Shown here: in pieces, positions 2,480 to 20,621 of the stretch | Layout of the letters: each line of letters starts with the position of its first letter | How positions within the stretch are numbered: the stretch's first letter is position 1 | Source: Syntrophobotulus glycolicus DSM 8271 | GTDB lineage: Bacteria; Bacillota; Desulfitobacteriia; Desulfitobacteriales; Syntrophobotulaceae | DNA: 64,000 bases | Direction: 5' to 3' | NCBI RefSeq assembly: GCF_000190635.1 | Contig: NC_015172.1 | Span: 2,418,001 to 2,482,000, forward strand | Program-made: the position numbers and the translations under genes | The notes under the pieces: model-generated | Told to the model about the DNA's origin: nothing | What the model saw: the letters and a program-made list of their open reading frames with translations, nothing else | The model's database searches: none

Positions 2480-3729
2480 CGCCTGCTGTATTTCTTTCTT
2501 CTGACTTTAAGCAGATTCGTCATAATATCATCAATAATCACCATTCCGAGCAAGGTCTCCTTCTCCTTGTCTACAACCGGTACCGCCAACAAGCTGTACT
2601 TAGACACAATTTCGTTCAACAGGTCTATCTCATCCAGATCGTAAACAAACAGGACCTTGGCATCCATGATATCCTGAAGTATTGTCTCCGGCTCGGATAC
2701 GACGATATCCCTCAGAGAGACCGCCCCTGTAAGCTTGCCGGCCTCGTCGACAATATAGAGGGAATAGATGGTGTCAATCTCCGGCTTAATGCTGCGAAGC
2801 TCCTTTAAAACCTCGTTGACCGACATTTCTTTCTTGAAAGAAATGTAATCCGTCGTCATCAGAGCGCCGACAGAGTTTTCGGGATATTCCATCAGTTCAC
2901 GGATTTCTTCGGAGGTTTCCTTCTCCATTTCATTGAGAATTTCTTCCGCTTTATGGTCGTCAATTTTCTCCAGAATATCCGCAGCCTCGTCCGCAGGCAT
3001 TTTTTCCAGGACATCCGCCGCCCTGGAAATGGACAGGCCTTCTAAAACATTGACCTGGGCTTCACTTTCCAGTTCCTCCAAAACCTCAGCAGCCCGGTCC
3101 TCATCCAGGGAAGAAAATACTTCAACCTGAGTATAGCGGTCAAGGTCTTCAATGATATCCGCAAAGTCCGAAGGATGAAGGGTTGATAATTTTGTATATG
3201 GTTTGGACAGCTTGATGCCTGTGTTTCCGGAAGGAACGGCTTCAACATCCTCCCACAGAATATAGCGGCCGGACAACGATATTCCTAATGATCGCAGTCC
3301 TTTCTTTATCGGCTTGGCTACGCCCAGCCTGCGCAGAAGCCCTTCCAGACCCACATCAACGGCGATAAGATAGGTTCCGTTGGATAATACGGCCAGTCTC
3401 AAGTCATTCACACGGACGATCTTTCTGCCGTCAATATCCACAATTTGTTTATCCATAATGTTTTTATTGAGAAAAAGCTGATTGGTTCCGGCTTCGGTGT
3501 AATCCCTGACCTGTCTGCATCTGAACGCATACTGGCCTTTGTTCTTGTCAATCTCCAAGAAAGAAAAATCAAGGATTCTTCCATTGCCGAGCTTTGCCGC
3601 CACAATCTTTGGTCTCACCTCATCAAGGTCGGCAATTAAATCCTTAATTTGCCCCAGCACCTGGTTGTCTTGGGTTATCACCCTGTTCCCCAAAATCCTG
3701 CTTAAATAAAACGTTAAAAATTTGGCCAT
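2476..3729 (-). CDS. PRC-barrel / MgtE N-domain / CBS-pair protein without a channel domain
   Basis: This 417-residue soluble protein has a PRC-barrel-like N-terminus (about residues 8-75). A MgtE N-terminal superhelical domain follows (about 160-285), with repeats such as ISRAADVLEKMPADEAADIL. A CBS pair (about 290-405) completes it. The MgtE transmembrane channel is absent, so this is the cytosolic Mg2+ sensor part alone. It precedes and overlaps the NRAMP-type gene, which suggests that it gates or regulates that transporter. The start ATG has a strong GGAGAGGGGGG ribosome-binding site. The mRNA leader carries an M-box. The regulatory role is inferred from the domains and the operon. Confidence 0.88.
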   Translation of the reverse strand: MAKFLTFYLSRILGNRVITQDNQVLGQIKDLIADLDEVRPKIVAAKLGNGRILDFSFLEIDKNKGQYAFRCRQVRDYTEAGTNQLFLNKNIMDKQIVDIDGRKIVRVNDLRLAVLSNGTYLIAVDVGLEGLLRRLGVAKPIKKGLRSLGISLSGRYILWEDVEAVPSGNTGIKLSKPYTKLSTLHPSDFADIIEDLDRYTQVEVFSSLDEDRAAEVLEELESEAQVNVLEGLSISRAADVLEKMPADEAADILEKIDDHKAEEILNEMEKETSEEIRELMEYPENSVGALMTTDYISFKKEMSVNEVLKELRSIKPEIDTIYSLYIVDEAGKLTGAVSLRDIVVSEPETILQDIMDAKVLFVYDLDEIDLLNEIVSKYSLLAVPVVDKEKETLLGMVIIDDIMTNLLKVRRKKYSRR

Positions 3730-3767
3730 TATCCAACCCCCCTCTCCGATGCGGAATCATCAAACAT

Positions 3768-3798
3768 AAAAAAACTTTACCTGTTTGAACAGGTAAAG
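3768..3798 (-). terminator. Intrinsic terminator, expression platform of the M-box
   Basis: On the minus strand a perfect 9-bp stem, CTTTACCTG/CAGGTAAAG with a 6-base loop, is followed directly by seven T residues. It sits between the aptamer and the start of the MgtE-N/CBS gene, as expected for a Mg2+-controlled transcriptional off-switch. Confidence 0.88.
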
Positions 3799-3968
3799 AG
3801 AGATGGCTTCACTGATGCCCGTTCAAGTTTTGGCACTTCAAGGCGTGAAATTGCGTTAGGTTATGCCTTGTTTTTTCGGCAAAACCTGCTAACCAGTTCA
3901 GGGTGTCTCCATCCTTTCACGGCAGCAATCCATATCCTTGGAGTAACCTCACCTACCGAGAGATATTC
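3799..3968 (-). promoter_or_regulatory. M-box (ykoK) Mg2+ riboswitch
   Basis: Read on the minus strand, the leader contains the M-box 5' core GGTAGGTGAGG, then an ACTCC segment and GATATGG-ATTGCTGCC. Further on come a purine-rich joining region and an AAGGCATAACCTAACGC element that can pair back with the 5' side. This order matches the Mg2+-sensing M-box consensus as remembered. It ends in an intrinsic terminator just before the Mg2+ transport operon. A covariance-model search would fix the exact ends. Confidence 0.87.
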
Positions 3969-3978
3969 AATTCAGTCT

Positions 3979-4007
3979 ATTATATAATTTACAAAAGGCC
4001 AATACAA
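3979..4007 (-). promoter_or_regulatory. Sigma-A promoter of the Mg2+ operon
   Basis: On the minus strand TTGTAT and a perfect TATAAT are separated by 17 bases. The expected transcription start is about 7-10 bases upstream of the M-box core, so the whole riboswitch would be transcribed. Confidence 0.7.
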
Positions 4008-14648: not shown

Positions 14649-15740
14649 TCATTCCAAGGCTTTCCTCCTGAAAAAATATACGATCAGCACGATCAGAGGC
14701 AGAATAAAGATCCCGACATTGCCGATATAGGGCAATAAGGTAAAAATTTTGTTGATTGTAACGGACGTCATTATTTTGAAGAAGGATACGGTGATAAAGG
14801 CGACGATACATAAAGGGATAATCAGCTTTTTGCTGTCTTTAATTTTGAATATTTGTCCCAAACCCATCGTTACACAATACATATAGAGAGAAAACTTGAT
14901 AAATTCAATAATTACCCATGCTACGACAGAGAGGGATTCAATTCTTTCTACAAATTCAAAGACTTCAATTGTCCGAACATATTTATAGTAGGGAAAAGAA
15001 GCGTGTTTCCCAAATTCAATTCCCAAAACAGCCTGAGCCGTAACCACAAAAACAATTAAGAATATAATCGATATGCCGATGAAATAGAGCGCTATTTTTT
15101 TGATATCCTCTTTTTTCTGCAGATTCGGAACCAGCATGGCGAAAACCAGCAAATCATAATATCGGGAAGCCACGATAAAGCCTCCCTGAGCAATGTCCAC
15201 AAGCTTGCTGTCTTTTAATACCGGTAAAAACAGACTGAAATCCATGCGGGGAATATTTAACGTTGTAAACAATACTGTGACCACAAAAAAATAAGGAATA
15301 AGAAACTCCGCCATCCTGCCCATTGTTTCTACTCCTTTATATGTCGTGTAAATACAGGGAATCAACATGGTGATCATGATGGCGTATACCGGAGTCTCCG
15401 GTAAAATCGTCGTATGAATGAAGTTGACCATATCAGCCAGGATGACGATCAGGAGAAATAATAATATTCCCATAAACAGCATTCCCATGATACTTCCGAT
15501 CAACTTCCCCATGATTCTTTGACAATATTGAATGAGATTCTCATCCGGAAACCTGCAGGCCAAAAATACCAGGGGCGCCGCGAAAATAAGGTAGAGAAAG
15601 GCAGAAAACACCAAGGCAATCCATAAATCCTGATTGCCCGGGGGGGCTGTTAATTGCAGGTAAAGAAATCCGGTAGTCATCCGGCAGGCAAAGAGCAGTA
15701 AAATCATTTGCAGGGTGGAAATTCTTTCTATTTTAATCAT
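14649..15740 (-). CDS. Spore germinant receptor B subunit (GerAB/GerKB type permease)
   Basis: The 363-residue integral membrane protein has ten hydrophobic segments and belongs to the endospore germination permease family. Early features include TTGFLYLQLTAPPGNQD, and the IYTTYKGVETMGRMAEF loop is typical of the family. The B subunit binds the germinant in the spore inner membrane. It is the last gene of an A-C-B operon and overlaps the C-subunit gene by 8 bases. The specific germinant cannot be told from sequence. Confidence 0.93.
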   Translation of the reverse strand: MIKIERISTLQMILLLFACRMTTGFLYLQLTAPPGNQDLWIALVFSAFLYLIFAAPLVFLACRFPDENLIQYCQRIMGKLIGSIMGMLFMGILLFLLIVILADMVNFIHTTILPETPVYAIMITMLIPCIYTTYKGVETMGRMAEFLIPYFFVVTVLFTTLNIPRMDFSLFLPVLKDSKLVDIAQGGFIVASRYYDLLVFAMLVPNLQKKEDIKKIALYFIGISIIFLIVFVVTAQAVLGIEFGKHASFPYYKYVRTIEVFEFVERIESLSVVAWVIIEFIKFSLYMYCVTMGLGQIFKIKDSKKLIIPLCIVAFITVSFFKIMTSVTINKIFTLLPYIGNVGIFILPLIVLIVYFFRRKALE

Positions 15741-17079
15741 ATTCCATGATCTCCTCGCCTGTAAGGGTATGCGTCGGCAGACGCAACAATCCCGTTTCTA
15801 AAATCGTTGTTTCAACTTGAACATTAACCTGAGCTGTTGAAAATTTTTGATTCCAATCGTATTTTATTCTTTCCCATTCCTGCGGATATTTTTTGTGAAA
15901 TTCCAAACCAAAACCAAAAACATCGCTTTGAAATTCTCTTTGTGTTTTGGTGATGACCTCTTCGATTTGTTTTTTGGTAACCTCCGAATTGGCATCCTGG
16001 ATCTTCTGGAGATCAATCTCGGTAGAGTCCTCCACCATTGTCTTTCCCTGACCTGTTAATTCCCCAATGGAACCGGATATTTTTAAATTCAAGTTGATGA
16101 TGATGCTCCCGTCTTCTTGCAGCAAGACCTCTCTCTTGCACTTAGATTCCAGGATTTCCACAGTCTGGACTCTGTCCGGCTTCTTGGCCACGATTGTTCC
16201 GCTTGAAACTTTATTATTGACAAAGTTCACAGCCTTCGTCTCTTCCCCGCCTAAGAATCCCACCAGCCTATCTTTAAGAAAAACCGCAGCGCCTTCATCC
16301 AGTATTTCCTTTTCTTTGTCGGGGTCATTCTGCGGTAAATCTCCATTCTTGCCGGACTCCTCAATCGTCATATCTGCCTCTCCTCTGGATTCAGAACTAT
16401 TGGCCTGGTCACTTCCTGCTTTTTCTGTGGACTTCTTTTGACCTTGGCTTTCCTCCGTTTTCATCTCCACCAGTTGCAAAACTCCGCAGACCGGTTGTTT
16501 TCCGATAGAATAGTATTCCTTGATAAAGTCAAGCAATTCAATGGAAACGCTTTTGGAATTCGCTCTCTGAGCCTTGGCCAGGCTTTGCAGGTATATGGAG
16601 GGAATATCCTCGATCCCTTCAGATTTACCCATCACATCGGAGGGCTTTGCTCCCTTTACAACAAAAACATAAGCATATAACCTTGATTCATGATCTCTCA
16701 TCCAGAAATCCATATAGTCCATAAAACCTTTCTTGGCTGCTTCTTCACTGAGAATAAAGACCTTGCAATCGGCCAGAAAGATTTTTCTGTCAAATTTCTC
16801 CGTTGCATTTCTCAACGCTTCCAGAACTGAATCCCCTGTTGTCTGGTCCATCACAAACGATTCTTGATTTGAGCGGGCTTCTCCCCCGTAAGCTTTTGGC
16901 CTGATGATTTCTGTCGTTACAATTATCTTTTCTCCTTGAATATCAATTCCTACGGCCCCCAGTATACCGATATTATTCAGCTCACGCCGGTTCCAGCAGC
17001 CTGAGACCGGTATCAGAATCAGAGCGGCCAGCAAGAGGATCAGTACTTTCTTCTTTTCTGCAGTTTTTGCTTTTTTCAT
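15733..17079 (-). CDS. Spore germinant receptor C subunit lipoprotein (Ger(x)C family)
   Basis: The 448-residue protein starts with a lipoprotein signal ending in the lipobox VSGC at about residue 28. Cys modification should anchor it to the outer face of the spore inner membrane. The body carries the Ger(x)C signatures, for example RRELNNIGILGAVGID and a C-terminal domain ending in THTLTGEE. A charged Ser/Glu/Lys-rich insert (about residues 210-260) is longer than usual. It is required together with the A and B subunits for nutrient sensing. Confidence 0.93.
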   Translation of the reverse strand: MKKAKTAEKKKVLILLLAALILIPVSGCWNRRELNNIGILGAVGIDIQGEKIIVTTEIIRPKAYGGEARSNQESFVMDQTTGDSVLEALRNATEKFDRKIFLADCKVFILSEEAAKKGFMDYMDFWMRDHESRLYAYVFVVKGAKPSDVMGKSEGIEDIPSIYLQSLAKAQRANSKSVSIELLDFIKEYYSIGKQPVCGVLQLVEMKTEESQGQKKSTEKAGSDQANSSESRGEADMTIEESGKNGDLPQNDPDKEKEILDEGAAVFLKDRLVGFLGGEETKAVNFVNNKVSSGTIVAKKPDRVQTVEILESKCKREVLLQEDGSIIINLNLKISGSIGELTGQGKTMVEDSTEIDLQKIQDANSEVTKKQIEEVITKTQREFQSDVFGFGLEFHKKYPQEWERIKYDWNQKFSTAQVNVQVETTILETGLLRLPTHTLTGEEIMEYD

Positions 17080-17142
17080 TTTTTTATCTCTCTCATCTTT
17101 TTTGTCTGATTAGCCAATTTTTCTCCACTGAATTTCTGCTGA

Positions 17143-18726
17143 TCATTTCTTGCGAGTATTATCCTGCCTTCGGATATTTTCTTTAACCACCGATTCTGGT
17201 CTTTTTTTCAACATCCACAGGGGATAACGGATAATGGAATCCTTCAGTTCCCCTTTATTGATCGGCGCAAAAGAAGTCGTATAAGGAACTCCGAATGAAC
17301 GCAAGGAAACCGCATGGGCAATTCCGATAAATAACCCGCTCACAATTCCATACAAGCCCATAAAACCGCCTAAAAACAAAAAGATAAACCGGTAGAAGGT
17401 GATCGATTCCGTCAGCGTTGGCAAGGCAAAGCTGGTGACGGCCGTAAGGGCAGTGATGATGACCATCGGCGTGCTGACCAGCCCTGCTTTTACTGCCGAT
17501 TCCCCAATGATCAACGCTCCGACAATACTGATCGCCGAACCGATTGGCCGGGGGAGCCTGGTTCCGGATTCTCTTAAGATCTCAAACATAAAAATCATCA
17601 CAAAGCATTCGACCAGAGAAGGCAGCGGGATTCCTTCCCTGGCTCCGGCCATGCTTACGAGAAGCACAGTTGGAATCATTTCATGATGGAAGGTTGTTAA
17701 CGCCACATATAATGAGGGGAGCATGACACTGATCGAGAATGAAAGAAACCTGATTATTCTTAAGAAAGAAGCCTGGTACGGCCGCAAAAAATAATCCTCG
17801 CTGGTTTGAATGCCTTCAATAAAGGTATAAGGAATGGTCAAAGCATGCGGTGTTCCGTCACAAAGGATGATCACTCTTCCCTCAAGTAATTTTGCCGCCG
17901 CCACATCAGGTTTTTGGGTATTGCCGACGGTAGGGAAAATGGAAAATGGTTCGTCTTCTATGTATTGTTCAATATATCCGGTTTCCAGGATTGCATCCGT
18001 ATCGATTTGACCGATTCTTCTCTTCACCTCTCCTAGAACCTCTTTATTGACAATTCCTTCAATATATCCGATACACAGATCAGTTTTTGTTTCTTTCCCC
18101 AGAACAATATTCTCAAAAATAAGATGATTATTTTTGATTTTCCGTCTGATCAGAGAAGTATTCACCCTGATGCTCTCGACAAAACCCTCTCTCGGACCCC
18201 TGATCACAGATTCCACATCCGGCTGCTCGACAGCCCTTTTATCCCAGCCCTTTGAATCTACGATGTAAACCGCGTCCAACCCTTCAAGCAGGATAACCGT
18301 ATTCCCTTTGAGGATCTCTTGTACAGCCTGTTTGATGTTCTCCGTATATTTGATATTTGCCGCTGTGATATATTTTCGAGGGTCTTCCTTTTCCACTTTA
18401 TAGTTTCTGATTAATGGACCGAGGATATCCCGGTTGATGATATCTTTGTTGATCATCCCGTCGAGATAGACGCTTAGACCGCGGATATTTCCTGTCGTTT
18501 GAAATTCAGCCAGGATCAGGTCCCCGCTGTTTTTAAATTCCTTTTGAAAAGCTTCCTTGCTTTTATTAATCGTTGAGGGAATACGGCTAAACGTATTGTT
18601 TGTCCTCCCCTGTATTCTTTTATTCTTATCCGGTGAATACTGGTTTATTTTTCTGATCATTTTTCTTATTGTTTTGAACAAAGCACTGTCCCCCTGAAAA
18701 ACGGGATAATCTCTATTATTTTTCAT
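17143..18726 (-). CDS. Spore germinant receptor A subunit (GerAA/GerKA type)
   Basis: The 527-residue protein has a soluble N-terminal half followed by about five membrane segments. Family motifs include GPREGFVESIRVNTSLIRRK and LLEGRVIILCDGTPHALTIP, and the membrane part has EGIPLPSLVECFVMIFMFEI with the LPRPIGSAISIVGALIIGES block. It is the first gene of the A-C-B operon. Transcription would be expected under the forespore sigma factor SigG, but no site was assigned. It is divergent from two tiny peptide genes. Confidence 0.94.
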   Translation of the reverse strand: MKNNRDYPVFQGDSALFKTIRKMIRKINQYSPDKNKRIQGRTNNTFSRIPSTINKSKEAFQKEFKNSGDLILAEFQTTGNIRGLSVYLDGMINKDIINRDILGPLIRNYKVEKEDPRKYITAANIKYTENIKQAVQEILKGNTVILLEGLDAVYIVDSKGWDKRAVEQPDVESVIRGPREGFVESIRVNTSLIRRKIKNNHLIFENIVLGKETKTDLCIGYIEGIVNKEVLGEVKRRIGQIDTDAILETGYIEQYIEDEPFSIFPTVGNTQKPDVAAAKLLEGRVIILCDGTPHALTIPYTFIEGIQTSEDYFLRPYQASFLRIIRFLSFSISVMLPSLYVALTTFHHEMIPTVLLVSMAGAREGIPLPSLVECFVMIFMFEILRESGTRLPRPIGSAISIVGALIIGESAVKAGLVSTPMVIITALTAVTSFALPTLTESITFYRFIFLFLGGFMGLYGIVSGLFIGIAHAVSLRSFGVPYTTSFAPINKGELKDSIIRYPLWMLKKRPESVVKENIRRQDNTRKK

Positions 18727-18850
18727 TTCAGAAAGGAATTTTATACATTAAACATTTTTATCTTTTATTGTCTGGAACTATTTTCCATAATATAACATAT
18801 TTTATATTGTTCATCGGTTATTATTTCCAAAATAAAAGGGGGCTTTTGTC

Positions 18851-18958
18851 ATGTCTGGTGCTTTTGGTGGAGAAACATGCTGTCCTTGCAGCTTCTGCGG
18901 AGTTGCCATTGTAACGATTATTATTCTTCTCTTAATTGCCTTGGGTATCGTTTTCTAA
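18851..18958 (+). CDS. 35-residue cysteine-rich single-span peptide
   Basis: A short frame starting at ATG 18851 behind AAAAGGGGG encodes MSGAFGGETCCPCSFCG followed by a hydrophobic helix ending in ALGIVF. The Gly-rich start and one membrane span recall small YjcZ/SscA-type spore peptides. The four cysteines (CCPCSFC) are unusual for that group and could bind metal or form disulfides. It lies beside the germinant receptor operon and a second similar peptide gene. The function is not known. Confidence 0.65.
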   Translation: MSGAFGGETCCPCSFCGVAIVTIIILLLIALGIVF

Positions 18959-18992
18959 TGATTCAATAGTTTTTAAGAGGAAGGTGAAACAC

Positions 18993-19088
18993 ATGTCTCA
19001 TCAAAGCTTTCTTTCCGGCGGAACTACAGGTGCTGCAATTATTGCGATTGCTGTCTTAATTCTTATTGCTCTGGCTGTTATTTTTTAA
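18993..19088 (+). CDS. 31-residue single-span peptide
   Basis: ATG 18993 follows an AAGAGGAAGGTG ribosome-binding site. The product starts MSHQSFLSGGTTGAA and is otherwise one hydrophobic helix ending in LALAVIF-like sequence. It resembles the preceding peptide in size and topology but lacks its cysteines, suggesting an old tandem pair. A terminator follows within 30 bases. It is probably a spore membrane or coat peptide; this is inferred from context. Confidence 0.65.
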   Translation: MSHQSFLSGGTTGAAIIAIAVLILIALAVIF

Positions 19089-19113
19089 GCCATTCACAAA
19101 TAATATTCAACTA

Positions 19114-19163
19114 AAGGGGACGGACGAAACTTTGGTTTCGCATTGTCTCCTTGCTTTTATTTT
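19114..19163 (+). terminator. Terminator after the two small peptide genes
   Basis: AAGGGGAC pairs with GTCTCCTT, with an inner GAAAC/GTTTC helix, and is followed by GCTTTTATTTT. It closes the small-peptide transcript, which supports the reality of these short genes. Confidence 0.75.
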
Positions 19164-19173
19164 AGGAGGAAAT

Positions 19174-19228
19174 AAAAAAAGCGCACCTCCAAATGTCCGC
19201 TCATTTTTGTCCAACATTTGAGGTGCGC
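19174..19228 (-). terminator. Terminator after dapL
   Basis: On the minus strand GCGCACCTCAAATGT pairs, with one bulge, with ACATTTGGAGGTGCGC, followed by seven T residues. It lies about 75 bases beyond the dapL stop. Confidence 0.88.
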
Positions 19229-19300
19229 CATACATCAGTGACTGCCATCACCGGTCGTATTCAATACGAAAATCAAATTTCCCTTTATGAGGAGAATCCC

Positions 19301-20527
19301 TTACATTTTTGTTGCTATTCTTTCCAGGGCCTCGATTGTATTTTCCCTGGTGCCAAAAGCCGTCAGCCTGAAATACCCTTCACCGTTGGCTCCAAAGCCC
19401 GCTCCGGGAGTCCCTACCACATTGGCCGTTCGCATAAGCCGGTCAAAGAAGTCCCAGGAACTGAGCTGATCAGGAGTCTTCATCCAGATATATGGCGCAT
19501 TGACCCCGCCAAAAACCTTATAACCGGCCTTTCTCAAACCTTCCCTGATGATCCTGGCATTCTCCATGTAGTAATCGATTAATTCTTTTACTTGTTTTTT
19601 GCCTTCTTCGGAATAGACAGCAGCAGCAGCAGCCTGTACCGGATAAGACACTCCATTGAATTTTGTGGTTTGCCTTCTCAGCCAAAGAGAGTTCAGGCTG
19701 TACCCTTCTCCTTTGGCGTCATAAACCTTGACCTCTTTAGGTACTATGGTATAAGCACATCTTGTCCCCGTAAAGCCGGCGGTTTTAGAAAAACTCCTGA
19801 ATTCCACAGCGACTTCCCGGGCCCCTTCAATTTCAAAAATACTGTGCGGGACCCCGTCTTCCCTGATAAAAGCTTCATAGGCCGCATCAAAGAGGATGAT
19901 CGATCTGTTTTCTCTGGCATGGTCTACCCACTTTTTCAGTTCTTCCCTGGAAAGTGTCATTCCGGTGGGATTGTTCGGAAAGCACAAATAAATCATATCT
20001 ACCCTGGCTGAAGGGAGAGCGGGTTTCATCCCGTTTTCCTCAGTACAGGGGAGATAAACCACTCTGTCAAATTTACCGTCTTTATGGACCCCTGTACGGC
20101 CGGCCATCACATTGCTGTCAACATAAACAGGATAAACCGGGTCAGTCACCGCAAAAATATTGTTTAGACCAAAAAGCTCCTGAAAATTAGCCGTATCGCT
20201 CTTGGCCCCGTCACTGACGAAAACCTCATCAACAGCCGCCTCTATTCCACGGGGAGTCAAATCATTTTCAATAATCTTTTTTGCCAGAAAATCGTAACCC
20301 TGCTCAGGACCGTAGCCCCTGAATGTTTCCGGGCGCCCCATCTCGTCTACAGCCTTTTTCATTGCCTCAATCACAGCCCCGGGGAGCGGCCTGGTCACAT
20401 CGCCAATGCCTAACCGAATCATATCAGCCTTTGGATGCTCAGCTTTGAACTGTTCGACTCTGCGGGCAATCTCCGAAAAAAGATAGTTTCCAGGCAATTT
20501 AAGATAGTTTTCATTGATTAATGCCAT
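19301..20527 (-). CDS. dapL: LL-diaminopimelate aminotransferase
   Basis: DapL converts tetrahydrodipicolinate directly to LL-diaminopimelate in the short route to lysine and cell-wall DAP. The 408-residue protein is a class I aminotransferase with the family start [20 protein letters not shown] and [12 protein letters not shown]. The PLP-lysine segment is [16 protein letters not shown]. The ATG at 20527 is preferred over an upstream TTG because AAGGAG stands 9 bases before it. It is a single-gene unit with its own terminator. Confidence 0.95.
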
Positions 20528-20621
20528 TCTTCTCAATCTCCTTATTTCACCTTGCTGGATATGTAAAACATTATTAATGACTATAACATGACATCAGCTC
20601 TTGTTCAATACGGCGGCATCA

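Follow-up and report, generated by a model that had tools for sequence, protein, structure and literature searches.

Two short frames in the genome of Syntrophobotulus glycolicus encode members of a family of tiny membrane peptides, here called A and B, which occur side by side and in many copies and whose distribution within one bacterial order follows that of sporulation genes. Taken together, the evidence leads us to read them as paired, multi-copy sporulation peptides made late in the mother cell, forming a heteromer in a membrane and using cysteines for cross-linking or metal binding, a reading to which we give a probability of roughly 0.6. A and B are probably an unrecognised spore part of the host's order. 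The strain itself, S. glycolicus FlGlyR (DSM 8271), is described as spore-forming in an excerpt of its published account (PMC3156405). The pair was found in a 64,000-nucleotide stretch of this genome, referred to as the window throughout.

Two short genes and their relatives

An earlier note on this DNA had proposed two tandem membrane peptides near 18851-19088, and the present analysis confirms that both frames are real genes. Peptide A (18851-18958, plus strand) has 35 residues, MSGAFGGETCCPCSFCGVAIVTIIILLLIALGIVF, and starts with a cysteine-cluster N-terminus, CCPCSFCG; peptide B (18993-19088, plus strand) has 31 residues, MSHQSFLSGGTTGAAIIAIAVLILIALAVIF. In each, a membrane helix of its own invariant type ends at the stop codon. 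The single helix proposed for each peptide was recovered for A by AlphaFold2 run on the single sequence (one helix at residues 13-34, with a pLDDT of about 95 over 21-35) and for B by hydropathy only. A structure search with the single-helix model of A returned no match, as is expected for one helix. Both ribosome-binding sites had been called good, which holds for B, where the site is clear (AAGAGGAAGG), and not for A, where it is only fair (AAAAGGGGG). The two frames share a terminator, as had been suggested: after B follows an intrinsic-terminator-like hairpin with a T-rich run (19114-19152, plus strand; dG -20.4 kcal/mol, z -3.7, equalled in 1 of 200 shuffles). A simple consensus scan gave no plus-strand promoter for the pair and did not include this hairpin among its terminators, and a search of 17000-20600 for RNA elements found no Rfam match. 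By eye, an inverted repeat followed by a T run on the minus strand is visible at 19179-19228; it looks like the terminator of the minus-strand aminotransferase gene at 19301-20536 and not of the peptide pair.

Profile searches across genomes found both frames conserved in relatives. The S. glycolicus genome, a single contig of 3,406,739 bases, holds four A+B pairs. Profiles built from these gave strong A and B matches in 20 of 25 genomes of the host's family (f1); at E up to 1 the tallies rise to 21 genomes for each peptide, each including one chance-level match in genus g9. Stretches were fetched around profile matches and own-genome sites, and the window was added; isolated matches at about E 0.005 or weaker were not fetched, and matches above E 0.01 were dropped during frame reading. 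From 68 of the 69 stretches searched, 69 sites were read, one stretch (L105) contributing two and another (L076) being left out, as its B match is cut by the contig end and yields no frame. These sites carry 73 A frames and 75 B frames, the class of each having been re-sorted by helix motif, with a few frames changing class. All counts out of 69 refer to family f1; two other families of the order, f2 and f3, whose loci were read separately, show the same pairs.

At least one A and one B lie side by side at 68 of the 69 sites. The order AB prevails (53 sites), followed by BA (9), BAAB (5) and BAB (1); the remaining site has a lone B with a poorly started frame. Neighbouring frames are 30-122 nt apart. 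The highest number per genome, 23 A-type matches, was reached in a 4.3-Mb genome of family f2 (G407), where some lie in longer arrays such as ABABABAB at L161. Within a few kilobases of the pairs, 8/69 sites have a gene of protein family 8, for example at 3370-3981 on the minus strand of L112; in that member a LysM-like repeat can be made out by eye, and the protein is possibly a spore coat protein.

Conservation is concentrated in the helices: in the distinct peptides compared (67 of A, 71 of B), little or no variation is seen at most helix positions, down to the choice between Ile, Leu and Val, and the A helix type differs from the B helix type. Counted from the C-terminus, positions -19, -12 and -10 to -6 do not vary at all among the 67 distinct A peptides. 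The two types are related to each other, with an hhalign probability of 96% and a score that none of 200 helix-permuted profiles reached. The N-termini vary in length and sequence and are often rich in Gly, Tyr or Cys; A peptides span 26-46 residues with 0-5 cysteines, B peptides have 0-7 cysteines, and the window B has neither the Cys nor the Gly-Tyr features common among family members. N-termini tend to be acidic on A and basic on B, and in 69 distinct pairs B is the more basic partner in 53, equal in 13 and less basic in 3. Over the last 19 codons, the average pair of A genes (n=73) shows 10.1 synonymous and 2.4 nonsynonymous codon differences, and the average pair of B genes (n=75) shows 10.2 and 2.5. 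The resulting ratios of 0.23 and 0.25, set against single-step neutral expectations of 2.7 and 2.6, show strong purifying selection on both frames.

Promoters and phylogenetic profile

Promoters recognised by SigK, the late mother-cell sigma factor, follow the consensus AC, 16-17 nt, CATANNNTA. The earlier note had suggested looking for a SigE/SigK or SigG promoter in 18727-18850, and a SigK-type motif is indeed found there (18777-18804, plus strand: AC, 17 nt, CATATTTTA), with 46 nt between the end of the -10 element and the A start codon. The motif was first noticed by eye in the own-genome sites. Within the 120 nt upstream it precedes 25/69 pairs, with 31-69 nt between the end of the -10 element and the start codon, and 7/343 control genes from the same stretches (Fisher 8.5e-16, a value that overstates independence because the sites are related); without the four own-genome sites the count is 23/65, or 23/61 distinct peptide sets. 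Across a 200-nt stretch with a spacing of 15-18 nt, 26/69 pairs have it, compared with a mean of 1.2 and a maximum of 5 in 100 shuffles. The -10 element alone (CATANNNTA) lies within 120 nt upstream of 40/69 pairs and 22/343 control genes. Conversely, the strict motif is missing at 44/69 pairs and even CATANNNTA is missing within 120 nt at 29/69, so that the promoter evidence, strong for the family as a whole, is partial at individual sites. In a set of 22 clusters dominated by f2, some of which repeat f1 sites, 5 have the motif at a spacing of 15-18 nt. SigE-type and SigG/F-type promoters were also considered and showed no enrichment, with 2/69 each and a shuffle mean of about 1.

The phylogenetic profile points in the same direction, and the link to sporulation drawn by the earlier note is supported by the joint absence of A, SpoIVA and close SigK-type factors. 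Among 73 genomes of the order, A is present in 67 and SpoIVA in 66; both occur in 66, A only in one (G006), SpoIVA only in none, and neither in six. The concordance of 72/73 has a Fisher value of 4e-8, which again overstates independence, as the co-absence rests on two lineages, genus g9 and genome G456. The six A-less genomes, all of them also missing SpoIVA, are five members of g9 and G456, and a congener of the latter (G457) carries A and SpoIVA, from which we conclude that at least two separate losses took place. With a SigK model, the best matches in these six genomes reach only 4e-17 to 6e-19, compared with 8.4e-73 or better in all 67 A carriers. The model's own cut-off was passed by 57/73 genomes, S. 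glycolicus included, and some of the weaker matches may be SigE rather than SigK. In the one genome with A and no SpoIVA match, a member of family f1 that has peptide pairs, the best match of SigK type lies at a contig edge, beginning at base 6, which suggests that the missing SpoIVA reflects an assembly gap.

The family appears confined to the order. At E 0.01, B was detected in 66/82 genomes of the class, all 66 inside the order, and was absent from all 9 class members outside it. B carriers coincide with A carriers except for one genome (G458), which has an A match but gave none for B at E 0.01; among its relatives in family f3 the B peptides have diverged. In a sample of 398 genomes of the phylum, A was found in 13, namely 12 order members and one genome with a weak match (E 9e-4, inside an 831-residue frame) that was judged to be chance, and B in 12, all in the order, with none in the 386 sampled genomes outside it. 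A scan of genome contigs gave 14 loci, from Peptococcaceae bacteria and metagenome-assembled genomes, Gracilibacter sp., Candidatus Dichloromethanomonas elyunquensis and Desulfosporosinus. Together, the SigK-type promoter and this profile suggest that the pairs are expressed in the mother cell during late sporulation.

Nearest analogues and possible roles

The YjcZ peptides of Bacillus and relatives are the nearest analogue. They resemble A and B in size and follow a common plan, with a variable N-terminus rich in Gly, Tyr or Cys, one near-invariant helix and many copies, sometimes in tandem. Moreover, yjcZ is placed within the SigK regulon of B. subtilis in an excerpt of PMC517825, a control that A/B pairs share by motif only (25/69 pairs versus 7/343 control genes). 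A profile similarity between A and YjcZ, with an hhalign probability of 81-84%, could even mean that A and B are diverged members of YjcZ (YjcZ_2), tiny SigK-controlled spore peptides with the same job. We consider such membership doubtful. In scans for YjcZ_2 (PF09680) at E up to 10 (HMMER filters drop most matches above 0.1), the model was listed neither for the window peptides nor for the family members submitted, 38 of each type; the model cut-off was not reached, and on this score membership was rejected. The model also had no match in the own genome and, at E 0.001, none in the 12 order members searched. When the helices were compared with that of YjcZ, FALIVVLFILLIIVGA, with columns permuted, the observed score was reached in 4/200 cases for A and 54/200 for B, so homology is unproven. 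The A/B helix sequence differs from that of YjcZ, and the A/B family consists of two distinct helix types, nearly always paired and found in another order; we know of no such strict two-helix pairing in YjcZ.

The cysteine cluster had been put forward as a contrast to YjcZ, which proved weaker than claimed. Among 34 YjcZ_2 peptides, chosen by helix pattern from six of seven matching phylum genomes, three have a CC pair and several have other cysteines; cysteines thus fail to separate the two families. Tandem sets whose helices differ slightly are found among YjcZ_2 peptides as well (L176-L205; for example L203, L185 and L202), which may parallel the pairing of A with B. On this analogy we file the A/B family as probably working like YjcZ and not as a member of it.

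Other library models did not account for the peptides. Neither window peptide matched Pfam or NCBIfam, apart from B at an NCBIfam E of 0.34, far below cut-off, and among family members the best NCBIfam values were 0.052 for A and 0.14 for B, none of them significant. The best other Pfam model, DUF3309 (PF11752), was listed for 6/38 B members with a best E of 0.0075 and was rejected; two B members scored 15.2 and 14.5 bits, the cut-off being 22.3. In the openly licensed literature searched by full text the family is not named, and a full-text search by sequence string gave nothing beyond a coincidental match in an unrelated publication.

In the joint reading, A and B would enter either the mother-cell membrane or the forespore's outer membrane by their C-terminal helices and form a specific heteromer in which they lie against each other. 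Such pairing is suggested by the adjacency of the genes, the near-fixed helices and the opposite charge of the two peptides, and a choice of Ile, Leu or Val that is nearly fixed at each position speaks for tightly packed helices rather than for plain membrane anchors. The N-termini, short as they are, would point into the space of the developing coat or cortex and link the membrane with it, with different copies supplying different N-terminal tags on the same membrane scaffold. In the Cys-type subfamily, which includes the window pair, this tie could be made by the cysteine cluster through disulfides or a metal ion. Thiol linking or metal binding of this kind is plausible if Cys-rich coat proteins are taken as a guide; for one of these, CotY, strong disulfide cross-linking is reported in an excerpt of PMC4950064, where the protein is given 161 residues and 15 cysteines. 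The likeness lies in cysteines within a protein of the spore layers, a location that for A and B we infer; the A peptides differ in being only 26-46 residues long, with 0-5 cysteines and a membrane helix.

A bolder variant, which strikes us as unlikely, has the helices of both peptides arranged in an ordered, mixed array within the mother-cell or outer forespore membrane, an undescribed proteolipid layer displaying genome-specific N-terminal tags. The invariant helices would fix the scaffold of such a layer, up to 23 copies would provide the tag set, Cys clusters among them, and the acidic A and basic B may be oriented oppositely.

Small peptides encoded side by side, with small residues in their helices, also bring to mind two agents that the mother cell might use: a two-peptide bacteriocin that is secreted, or a membrane toxin such as those of type I toxin-antitoxin loci. 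Class IIb bacteriocins likewise consist of two adjacent short helical peptides, and according to an excerpt of PMC6957408 full activity of two-peptide bacteriocins requires two different peptides. We hold this to be very unlikely for A and B, whose distribution is sporulation-linked: the pair is absent where SpoIVA and SigK-type factors are absent, the helix is nearly invariant across the order, and a genome may hold up to 23 A matches. Bacteriocin or RiPP models gave insignificant matches only (E 3.1 and 1.2). No candidate immunity or transporter family neighbours the pairs at more than 15/69 sites, and no leader, immunity or export genes were noticed for them, as judged by family recurrence, most neighbours having no individual annotation.

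Genomic setting and significance

As the earlier note pointed out, the window pair sits opposite a germinant-receptor operon (GerA, GerAC, Spore_permease; 14649-18726, minus strand). The operon is complete and divergent from the pair across a 124-nt gap, an arrangement that would suit accessory peptides of the adjacent receptor. A special tie of this kind found no support. Among the 69 sites, a GerA-like gene was present in the fetched stretch at only two, the window and L080; the remaining three own-genome pairs have none there, and neither strand of the 124-nt shared gap has a SigG-like site. An accessory role is therefore highly improbable and was rejected on the strength of the other sites.

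The usual site of the Cys-type pair is not a germination operon but a conserved locus, home to 17/69 sites and recognised by the presence of family 0 (queH-like), family 4 (CBS-like) or both, the two names being read from the protein sequences. A Cys-cluster A is found at 17/17 of these sites and at 1/52 elsewhere, the one being the window, by a search expression written after the peptides had been inspected. The cysteine cluster is thus not peculiar to the window. The corresponding locus of the own genome (L207, C1:1735000-1746000) keeps the neighbouring families 5, 10, 1, 2, 6 and 0, and its 11-kb stretch contains neither a peptide pair nor the CBS-like family 4. Furthermore, the window A has Thr at helix position -14, which is seen in 14 A frames, 11 of them at the queH-like locus. 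The window pair is probably a copy relocated from that locus to its place beside the germination operon; an independent origin of its Cys cluster is the alternative and not the simplest reading. Because the pair probably moved there in this lineage, the operon is a poor clue to function.

The notion that A and B are chance open frames or annotation noise, to which their length below 36 codons and the want of a significant library match might lend some colour, has a negligible probability and was rejected on conservation and codon pattern, given four pairs in one genome, 69 sites read and the synonymous substitution pattern.

These results add a paired, many-copy family of sporulation peptides to an order of environmentally important anaerobes such as Desulfosporosinus. 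Within this order, its presence may indicate, even from an incomplete genome, that the organism is able to sporulate. We know of no mechanism for the tiny helix peptides of spores, YjcZ included, and two near-fixed, nearly always paired helices offer a testable handle on the role of such peptides.
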